Below are positions 23,865-26,856 of a stretch of DNA of 27,267 bases, piece by piece. The stretch spans positions 1 to 27,267 of the IMG/VR virus record IMGVR_UViG_3300047547_000123, one strand, 5' to 3'. This DNA comes from a virus. The translations under genes were made by a program, and so were the position numbers. Numbering within the stretch: position 1 is the first letter of the stretch; each line of letters begins with the position of its first letter. The notes beneath the pieces were generated by a model, which had not been told where the DNA came from, made no database searches, and saw only the letters and a list, made by a program, of their open reading frames with translations.

Positions 23865-23938
23865 TGGAGCAGCCTGCGAGAATCGAACTCGCGCCCTGAA
23901 CTTGGAAGGATCTCATTCTACCATTAAACTAAGGCTGC
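23865..23938 (-). tRNA. tRNA-Gly (anticodon TCC)
   Basis: Acceptor stem GCAGCCT/AGGCTGC, T-arm GCGAGTTCGATTCTCGC, anticodon loop CTTCCAA (TCC), discriminator T and encoded CCA. Canonical 74-base cloverleaf. It starts three bases after the macro-domain gene stop. Confidence 0.93.
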
Positions 23939-23941
23939 TTA

Positions 23942-24400
23942 TTATTTCCAGTGATGGAAGTGTACTTCATTATCTTTTAATGTATTTTCGATAATATTGA
24001 GGATTATCTCCTCGTTCCCACCACCTAGCCCAGCGCCAATTAGATATGGGATGTGGATAGGAGTATCAAAATTAACGCTTTGTGCTACTTTGTCTAGGCA
24101 TTGTTCTAGTGCAGAATATGATACGTATTTAGAACCATCACGACCATAAAACTCCTGTGTAATAGCATTAGCTATTTTTAGTGTTTTACTAACAGGTACA
24201 AAAATAACTTGACCCAAAGGGTTAATTTTTTGTACTGCGTATATCTCTAGGTTTAGGCAGTAGTCGTAAAAAATTTCTGGATATTTAGCACGAAGCTGTT
24301 TAGCTACGCCGCTGCCCATAACGCTCTGTGCATTACAGCCGTGAACAATTATACCCTCTTTAGCACGAACAATGTTAGAGGGCTTGTGGTGTATAATCAT
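23942..24400 (-). CDS. macro-domain protein (ADP-ribose-type ligand)
   Basis: A 152-residue stand-alone macro domain. The ligand-binding segments are clear: IIVHGCNAQSVMGSGVAKQL (about 17-36, the Asn and Gly-Ser-Gly-Val loop) and IPYLIGAGLGGG (about 118-129, phosphate-binding loop). YSALEQCLDKVAQ fits the usual helix between. This subtype often hydrolyses ADP-ribose-1''-phosphate, a by-product of tRNA repair, or removes ADP-ribose from nucleic acid or protein. It ends three bases before tRNA-Gly and is coupled to the gene before it (TAATATG). A role against host ADP-ribosylation or in tRNA repair is inference. Confidence 0.9.
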   Translation of the reverse strand: MIIHHKPSNIVRAKEGIIVHGCNAQSVMGSGVAKQLRAKYPEIFYDYCLNLEIYAVQKINPLGQVIFVPVSKTLKIANAITQEFYGRDGSKYVSYSALEQCLDKVAQSVNFDTPIHIPYLIGAGLGGGNEEIILNIIENTLKDNEVHFHHWK

Positions 24401-24401
24401 A

Positions 24402-24683
24402 TTAATAAGGTACGTCTGTATCGTCTAAGCCCCATGTACTATTAGTCATGTAGGGGGCAACTTCTTCTTGATAGTGCGTTTCCGCAGACCAAGAAGACCA
24501 AGCAGCTGTTATTTTATCTAAAACAGACTGCTGGAACTTAATTGAGGTATTGGCATGCAACCACTTCAAGTATTCCCAATCATCTAAAACATCACAGACT
24601 CGGCAGCCTTTATACTTACCAAGTGTAAGTACGTCTTGTAGACCTAGACGTGGATCTTTTATTTTTGAGAATGCTTTTGACAT
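24402..24683 (-). CDS. DUF3820-like (QSregVF_b) small protein
   Basis: A 93-residue protein whose centre reads LTLGKYKGCRVCDVL then DWEYLKWLHANTSIK. This matches the short F/L-GKYKG-x-x-x-x-D-V-x-x-x-Y-L-x-W-L motif of the DUF3820 / QSregVF_b family, often found beside or fused to exonucleases. The C-terminal tail is acidic with Trp (AAWSSWSAETHYQEEV). AGGT lies seven bases before the ATG. It overlaps the preceding gene by 25 bases. Function of the family is poorly known. Confidence 0.72.
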   Translation of the reverse strand: MSKAFSKIKDPRLGLQDVLTLGKYKGCRVCDVLDDWEYLKWLHANTSIKFQQSVLDKITAAWSSWSAETHYQEEVAPYMTNSTWGLDDTDVPY

Positions 24684-24856
24684 GAAAATACCTGGAGAAA
24701 GCCTTCGACGCTATTTTCGTATACAGTCTCTGTACCAATATTACGATAAGTAACTGTAGGTACATCGTACAAATAGTCGATATTCTGAATAATTACAACC
24801 CTTTGCGATTTAGGGTCATGCCATACTGTGCCGGGTAATAGTGTTTGTGTGTTCAT
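24659..24856 (-). CDS. hypothetical protein, 65 aa, start codon inside an RNA stem
   Basis: A small beta-rich protein (MNTQTLLPGTVWHDPKSQRV, then DVPTVTYRNIGTETVYEN), which looks like a compact single domain; the stretch GTVWHDPKSQRVVII recalls small beta-barrel folds. I chose ATG 24856 over the GTG at 24868. There is no ribosome site: the upstream bases form the 3' arm of a 17-bp stem whose last three bases are this ATG. Translation is therefore likely to depend on RNA structure. Function unknown. Confidence 0.7.
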   Translation of the reverse strand: MNTQTLLPGTVWHDPKSQRVVIIQNIDYLYDVPTVTYRNIGTETVYENSVEGFLQVFSCQKHSQK

Positions 24857-24983
24857 ATATAATCGCACATTCAGTGCTTGAACCTGCGTTAGCCCTACCT
24901 CTTCATGGCCTGCCTATTACGTACCCGGGATTTGTACTAGGCTATCGGTGTTCCATTGTAGCTAATATGTGCGATTATATATG
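24854..24983 (-). ncRNA. strongly folded RNA element, candidate cis-regulator or small RNA
   Basis: A perfect 17-bp inverted repeat (24854-24870 with 24967-24983) encloses 96 bases that hold further nested pairs: TTAGC/GCTAA (24961-24965 with 24889-24893), TAC/GTA, ATGG/CCAT (24953-24956 with 24905-24908), GCCTA/TAGGC (24938-24942 with 24912-24916) and GTAC/GTAC. A GGTTCAAGC stretch near the 3' side resembles a tRNA T-loop, but T-stem, anticodon arm and length (110 bases between 7-bp ends) do not fit a tRNA. The closing stem contains the start codon of the gene at 24856. A promoter-like GTGACA-18-TATAAT on the minus strand lies at the far side (25005 to about 24974). Confidence 0.65.
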
Positions 24984-25065
24984 TGAACTGCCTAGGGTGT
25001 CACAGTTCATGGCCATTTACCTACGTGGAGTTATACGTTTCCTTGCGTTTTTGGCTTAGTATAGG

Positions 25066-25138
25066 TAGTCAAGGTAGGACTCGAACCTACAACATCCGGA
25101 ATATGAGTCCGTTACTCTACTATTGGAGCTACTTGACT
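25066..25138 (-). tRNA. tRNA-Met (anticodon CAT)
   Basis: Acceptor stem AGTCAAG/CTTGACT, anticodon loop CTCATAT (CAT), T-arm GTAGGTTCGAGTCCTAC, discriminator A; CC follows but no final A, so CCA is only partly encoded. The A-U first pair fits an elongator. A lysidine-modified isoleucine tRNA cannot be excluded. Confidence 0.9.
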
Positions 25139-25142
25139 GTAT

Positions 25143-25218
25143 TGGAAACAGAGGTGAGAATCAAACTCACATAGAACGGATTTGCAATCCGACGCCTAAA
25201 TCATTCAGCCACTCTGTT
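25143..25218 (-). tRNA. tRNA-Cys (anticodon GCA)
   Basis: Acceptor stem AACAGAG/CTCTGTT, anticodon loop TTGCAAA (GCA) on a CGGA/TCCG stem, T-arm GTGAGTTTGATTCTCAC, discriminator T as expected for Cys, and encoded CCA. It overlaps the stop codon of the preceding gene by two bases. Confidence 0.92.
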
Positions 25219-26769: not shown

Positions 26770-26856
26770 TGGCGGAAGATATAGGAATCGAACCTATCAG
26801 CCCATCTCTGAACGGCTGTTTAGCAAACAGCGGTCGCACCTTGCAACACATCTTCC
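26770..26856 (-). tRNA. tRNA-Ser (anticodon GCT)
   Basis: Acceptor stem GGAAGAT/ATCTTCC, anticodon loop TTGCTAA (GCT) on CTGT/ACAG, long variable arm, T-arm ATAGGTTCGATTCCTAT, discriminator G, encoded CCA. Confidence 0.93.

Follow-up and report, generated by a model that had tools for sequence, protein, structure and literature searches.

A candidate small structured RNA gene with a tRNA-like T-arm and a self-complementary loop in phage tRNA and tmRNA arrays

Several described viral RNAs come close to the structured element that we report here from a 27,267-base IMG/VR virus record (hereafter the window, that is, the whole stretch of DNA that was analysed). The packaging RNA of phi29, about 120 nt long, is closed end to end by a long helix and joined through kissing loops; however, it uses two different complementary loops and forms rings, whereas the present element has one self-complementary loop, and the Rfam pRNA family gave no match to it. 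The dimerisation initiation site of retroviruses, a hairpin in the genomic RNA, displays a six-base palindrome with unpaired flanks in its apical loop, a layout like that of our loop, and no kinship is claimed. RNAs C and D of T4 (species 1 and 2) are small stable RNAs of about the size of the element, placed by annotation just downstream of tRNA-Arg; the covariance model R2 described below found no match to them in L165 at E values up to 10, and no sequence kinship was seen.

The GOLLD and ROOL RNAs, according to one account (PMC12286853), are structured phage RNAs of several hundred nt that lie near tRNA islands, have no known function, self-associate through kissing loops and form nanocages. 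The element is found in the same niche (phages, tRNA islands), and a kissing loop is proposed for it from sequence, but at about 130 nt it is far smaller than the RNAs so described, and its one self-complementary loop would lead us to expect a dimer, unlike those nanocages; the GOLLD and ROOL families of Rfam did not match it. According to two further papers, mycobacteriophage DS6A carries a CDS-less tmRNA reduced to the tRNA-like domain (TLD-only), with an acceptor stem and a T-arm and no tag frame (PMC4131195, PMC11915505), and a molecule like it is a strong inhibitor of tmRNA, possibly through titration of SmpB (PMC4131195). Both the DS6A RNA and the element are small, combine an acceptor stem with a T-arm and have no tag frame; the element, in contrast, lacks the tmRNA D-loop motif and the CCA and possesses a P2-P3-P4 arm with a palindromic loop. 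Finally, the tRNA model RF00005 gave no match over the element, which falls short of the threshold and of a cloverleaf with an anticodon arm, as the first-pass annotation had anticipated in denying that it was a normal tRNA. One feature of the tRNA type, a T-arm with a 7-nt loop abutting the acceptor stem, is present, and no CCA end or aminoacylation signal that would support tRNA-like charging was found in the element.

The element and its nearest relative

The window contains phage genes and six tRNA genes, every one of the latter on the minus strand, which is also the strand on which the element was analysed. The features are as follows.

24854-24983, minus: whole RNA element (RNA 5' end near 24983, 3' end near 24854)
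24967-24983, minus: P1 5' strand, acceptor-like, pairing with 24854-24870
24854-24870, minus: P1 3' strand, its last three bases being the ATG of the next gene
24960-24965, minus: P2 5' strand UUAGCU, pairing with 24889-24894
24889-24894, minus: P2 3' strand GGCUAA, with family covariation
24947-24956, minus: P3 5' side, AUGG and CC with an AACA bulge between, pairing with 24905-24910
24905-24910, minus: P3 3' side GGCCAU, with family covariation
24934-24942, minus: P4 5' strand, apical hairpin stem, from the comparison with L004 (core of 5 bp in the family)
24912-24920, minus: P4 3' strand, from the comparison with L004 and family covariation
24924-24929, minus: loop hexamer CCCGGG, self-complementary, proposed kissing-dimer contact
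24871-24887, minus: T-arm-like hairpin GCAGG-UUCAAGC-ACUGA with 7-nt loop UUCAAGC; the stem covaries
25064-25138, minus: tRNA-Met, the nearest upstream tRNA, 80 bases from the element
25143-25218, minus: tRNA-Cys
23865-23938, minus: tRNA-Gly, the next tRNA on the element's 3' side
26770-26856, minus: tRNA-Ser(GCT), by ARAGORN only and below the Rfam gathering score
24659-24856, minus: 65-aa ORF, its ATG at the end of P1

The location between tRNA genes proposed at first reading thus holds in so far as tRNA-Met lies upstream and tRNA-Gly on the 3' side, but the element runs straight into a gene. The 65-aa ORF at 24659-24856 had no Pfam match and its protein had no relatives in the viral contigs searched; a protein-guided search with the ORF at 24402-24683 led to two loci. 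At 23942-24400 lies a macro-domain protein (Pfam PF01661) whose relatives occur in jumbo phages and in 115 Rheinheimera phage records, and a 126-codon ORF begins inside tRNA-Ser(GCT) at 26770-26856. The stretch 24984-25015, which adjoins the element on its upstream side, contains a 7-bp hairpin (TGAACTG...CAGTTCA) and, at 25007-25015, a second copy of the 9-mer TTCATGGCC that is also present in the element core at 24902-24910; hairpin and copy are possibly the remnant of an older element copy or of a lost tRNA. The searches for tmRNA found none in the 27-kb window.

As first reported, the closing stem P1 is perfect, with 17 bp and no mismatch. Its folding energy is -40.3 kcal/mol for the whole element, whereas shuffled sequences give -27 +/- 3.55 (z -3.75), and none of 200 shuffles did as well; because of its inverted repeats, the plus strand folds almost as well (z -3.59), so that folding energy alone cannot settle strand or meaning. 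Inside P1 the minimum-energy fold of the window differs from the conserved fold and is devoid of the conserved inner helices: P2, P3, P4 and the T-arm are weak in single-sequence folding and were supplied by comparative analysis, and one P4 pair is broken in this copy (G-A). At first pass, at least five nested helices were read by eye; the structure is real, but the conserved helices are not those of the energy minimum, nor are they all nested, since T-arm hairpin and long arm stand side by side at a three-way junction. The T-loop-like GGTTCAAGC, on the other hand, was read correctly and belongs to a conserved T-arm of the tRNA type.

Searching with the ClpP-like neighbour protein retained 80 loci, two of which (L004 and L024) contain the RNA. 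In L004 the ClpP is 69% identical and a stretch of 65 nt is 94% identical to the window; between the two phages, the core is thus conserved at 94% over 65 nt while nearby proteins are only 58-69% identical. The 130-nt elements align without a gap, and L004 again has a perfect closing stem of 17 bp (18 bp by another stem count) whose sequence is unlike that of the window. All four changed P1 pairs are compensated, compensated pairs also occur in P2 and in the T-arm-like hairpin, and two-sided changes affect 7 of 41 pairs in total; the L004 element folds at z -6.27. The 65-aa gene is missing in L004, where the ATG at the stem end opens a homologue of the next gene.

An RNA family with a conserved fold

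Starting from a gapped pattern of two core pieces common to the window and L004, we obtained 64 stretches, 48 of which match the two-sequence model R1 at E <= 2.2e-7; further members came from an exact 17-mer (57 stretches) and from a hairpin pattern of the first members (102 stretches). Members of the family occur at 105 places in the IMG/VR contigs examined; they comprise 74 distinct cores, every one from such contigs, and many of those contigs are fragments. Since the 105 places were gathered with an expression that demanded an observed loop form and a T-loop form, they cannot serve to test the loop. The covariance model R2, built from 52 sequences with the window, L004, L024, L109, L142, L146 and L148 held out, recovered all seven of these copies (the window at 24981-24857 with E=1.9e-13); over 87 sources, including the T4 tRNA region, its next-best match had E=1.1. 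In 36 whole records searched with R2, exactly one copy was present in each of 35 matching records, the sole record without a match being L181, a chance match of the hairpin pattern; the single-copy records reach 383 kb, and element loci hold up to 39 tRNAs. The contigs behind L131 and L199 measure 383 and 356 kb.

Rfam gave nothing over the window element, whether its gathering threshold was applied or E values as high as 5 were admitted, and in Rfam 15 no known family matched L106 or, tmRNA aside, the element in six more loci. Two exact patterns found no copy in 84,980 prokaryote genomes, a search whose exactness would miss diverged copies; one 161-base blastn query (L106) against 50,697 phage records and R2 on six whole cultured-phage records that contain comparable pieces of permuted tmRNA or of tRNA likewise gave nothing. 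Exact 17- and 16-mer searches each returned one true locus (both L086) along with six chance loci, and in L156-L160, L163 and L164, which matched the other 17-mer, the one that yielded 57 stretches, the element is absent. In L162 the copy is cut by the contig end, L055 was discarded as a false match of the search expression, and L086 and L091 were left out of the counts as duplicates of L004.

The fold, consisting of the closing stem P1, P2, a two-part P3, P4 and the T-arm, is real. When 73 sequences were aligned to the model, an alignment that by its making leans towards the structure, 98.2% of base-pair cells were paired and 26 of 29 pairs showed two-sided changes (a level that none of 500 shuffles reached, with slid controls pairing at 33-45%). 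In a MAFFT alignment of 52 sequences that was not fitted to the structure, 94.9% of cells were paired and 20 of 29 pairs had two-sided changes, neither figure being reached by any of 500 shuffles, and slid controls paired at 35-47%. RNAalifold independently predicted 24 pairs, 15 of them with two-sided changes. Compensatory change in relatives, which the first-pass annotation had named as a check on its fold, speaks strongly in favour, both against L004 (4 of 4 changed P1 pairs) and across the family.

Over the 73 rows, the inner 8 bp of P1 covary and P3 exchanges AU, CG and GU pairs, while in P2 the family has two-sided changes at four of six pairs. G-U pairs are numerous, and one U-G pair of P2 is U-G in 72 of 73 rows, which speaks for conservation at the level of RNA and not of DNA. 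The T-arm stands directly before the P1 3' strand as in tRNA; its stem is short, and its loop, usually UUCAAGC, has 7 nt in 72 of 73 rows. A tRNA-like G-C closure of the T-loop occurs in 9 of 73, the remainder having mostly purine-purine closure. Conservation is highest in P2-P4, the loops and the hexamer. P1 ranges from 8 bp to about 20 bp: excluding cores near contig ends, it measures 8-10 bp in 18 distinct cores and is longer in 52. In those 52, where P1 measures 15-23 bp, the 11th pair is the most frequent site of a mismatch (33 of 52); that none lies near the inner end is in part an effect of the script, which chooses the best-scoring stem.

The palindromic loop and the tRNA and tmRNA neighbourhood

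The loop was examined in 35 distinct rows (set A4) collected without demanding any loop sequence. The aligned loop hexamer can pair with itself in every one of the 35 rows and takes seven forms: GUCGAC in 29 rows and, in one row each, CCCGGG (window), UCCGGA (L004), CUAUAG (L142), ACUAGU (L146) and, with a G-U, GUUGAC (L144) and GUCGAU (L161), so that the test rests on six variant rows of 35. Moved by 1 to 6 positions, the same test succeeded in 0 to 3 of 35 rows, and in none at 1 or 2 positions either way. Inside one loop only the outermost pair of the hexamer can form, and the contact would therefore be a kissing one between two copies; judged from covariation, the hexamer points to a kissing-loop homodimer.

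The genomic context was counted over the 74 distinct cores, in which rows are related and counts are not independent. A tRNA lies within 20 nt in 50 of 74 cores, 11 cores are bounded, by motif, by CACCA and by the UUUCGAC with which a permuted tmRNA begins (UUCGAC is the D-loop motif of tmRNA, as also seen in this analysis), a further eight have their nearest tRNA within 300 nt, and five have none within 300 nt, two of these (L141 and L161) being beside a permuted tmRNA. Opposite-strand tRNAs occur in no element locus (74 cores), and the element is found directly 3' of the CCA ends of tRNAs of many identities. A short P1 goes together with a close downstream tRNA: a tRNA begins within 13 nt downstream in 16 of 18 short-P1 cores versus 10 of 52 long-P1 cores, although the rows are related and a Fisher value computed on them comes out too strong. 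Thirteen long-stem cores lie no more than 11 nt from the end of an upstream tRNA, and in 12 of 13 the CCA of that tRNA is fully paired in the outer stem, typically as CCAUAUA with UAUAUGG.

Nesting in permuted tmRNA was seen at L096, L105, L151, L169, L174, L186, L187, L188, L195, L221 and L223. There the element follows the CCA of the acceptor piece and precedes the coding piece, so that one precursor would yield two tmRNA pieces and the element RNA. An Rfam tmRNA_permuted match spans the element in L096, L151, L174, L186 and L188, and in the first four of these the model covers it only as intervening segment. Of the 35 element records, many of them fragments, 15 contain a permuted tmRNA that scores above the cut-off. 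A tRNA gene within the intervening sequence of a permuted tmRNA is on record (PMC11915505), so that the segment can carry other RNAs. Additionally, Xanthomonas phage X1 (L228:1500-1750) has a permuted tmRNA that is unannotated in its record, with an intervening segment of about element length, apparently closed by a stem and unrelated in sequence to the element. In 9 of 18 loci run through ARAGORN (L005, L006, L007, L008, L010, L012, L013, L014 and L017), a tmRNA stands directly upstream of the ClpP-like protease gene, an arrangement that suggests a phage trans-translation/proteolysis pair.

What the RNA may be

We consider it probable that the element is a small stand-alone structured RNA gene, kept in single copy in phage tRNA and tmRNA arrays, whose product would be processed and dimerise and, with much less assurance, might serve as a decoy or regulator with a tRNA-like head. 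The RNA, about 100-130 nt in size, would be transcribed together with the tRNA/tmRNA array; the short-stem form would be freed on both sides by the maturation cuts of its flanking tRNAs, and in the long-stem form, to which the window belongs, an RNase III-like activity would cleave the element's own outer stem of 18-20 bp, a long outer stem being a substrate of the RNase III type. In the mature molecule, an acceptor-like stem would stack on the T-arm, with one long arm besides, and two copies may join in the cell through the self-complementary loop at the tip of that arm. The resulting dimer would present two tRNA-like T-arm/acceptor heads, acting in trans on a factor that handles tRNA or tmRNA during infection. 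A decoy or regulator of a tRNA- or tmRNA-binding factor is our guess at its likeliest role. Both the decoy tRNA-like RNA and the stable small RNA entertained at first pass fit the T-arm and acceptor-like stem, the single copy and the tRNA-array position.

More specifically, the dimer may be a two-headed tRNA mimic, a kissing pair that holds two acceptor/T-arm elbows at a fixed spacing and captures SmpB, EF-Tu, RNase P or a tRNA-sensing defence protein, its gene being hidden in tRNA precursors or in the tmRNA gene and released by the enzymes of tRNA maturation; this is possible, and we put it forward tentatively.

Rather doubtful, in our estimate, is a cis-acting processing element with no further role, in which stem and T-arm would let RNase III and RNase P cut the tRNAs, the pieces of tmRNA and the downstream mRNA apart. 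The location right after CCA ends, the dependence of stem length on the neighbours and the pairing of the CCA tail in the precursor are what such a device would display; however, there is one copy per record even in many-tRNA arrays, the parts conserved most (P2-P4, the loops and the hexamer) are not needed by a processing stem, and the core has been kept far more closely than the nearby proteins.

The first-pass annotation had stressed a start codon buried in the stem and offered a translational switch (thermometer, ligand or protein sensor) of the gene starting at 24856. Its observations are borne out: the last three bases of P1 (24856-24854, minus strand) are an ATG that opens the 65-aa ORF, no Shine-Dalgarno-like sequence precedes it, so that the target gene would be without a ribosome site, and the ATG is sequestered in the 17-bp stem with pair probabilities of 0.93-1.0. 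As the function of the family, however, the switch fails, for the gene that the ATG opens in the window is unrelated to the one it opens in L004, and an ORF of at least 40 codons starts in or at the P1 3' strand in no more than 9 of the 74 distinct cores; an association with one downstream gene or start codon is thus not conserved in these comparisons, and we regard the switch as quite unlikely. The AUG has, by our inference, another origin: the outer stem usually pairs with the CCA tail of an upstream tRNA, and the complement of that tail (CCAUAUA/UAUAUGG) contains AUG. This would explain why two different genes share the arrangement in the window and L004, and why so few cores have an ORF start there. 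The window keeps CAUAUAUA/UAUAUAUG even though tRNA-Met is 80 nt away, and the frame of the next gene starts at that AUG.

A reduced tmRNA, a CDS-less tRNA-like domain that titrates SmpB as proposed for the DS6A type, would share with the element an identical order of acceptor stem, long arm and T-arm, as well as the position inside or beside permuted tmRNA genes, and the inhibition of tmRNA by a TLD-only RNA (PMC4131195) gives such titration a precedent. It is nevertheless very improbable, given that outside true tmRNA genes no Rfam tmRNA model overlaps the element (the window and L106 included), that both the UUCGAC motif of the D-loop and the CCA end are missing from it, and that an intact permuted tmRNA is also present in at least 15 of 35 records. 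Insertion of a mobile element, whether DNA or RNA, behind tRNA CCA ends would suit the sites directly after tRNAs of many identities and in the tmRNA intervening segment, yet the single copy in 35 of 35 matching records and a structure maintained at the RNA level make it scarcely credible.

We therefore return to a small stand-alone RNA gene as the preferred reading. With no Rfam match and no description of an RNA of this kind in the literature searched (subscription papers lying outside that search), the family appears to be undescribed and thus a new RNA class in a known niche; the novelty applies to the RNA family and not to any demonstrated mechanism. It would add to phage biology a new class of noncoding RNA with strong covariation and with a self-pairing loop predicted from that covariation, and it links three open subjects, namely the reason for the tRNA arrays and tmRNA of large phages, the role of the unexplained RNAs in those arrays, and the frequency of natural RNA-RNA homodimers.
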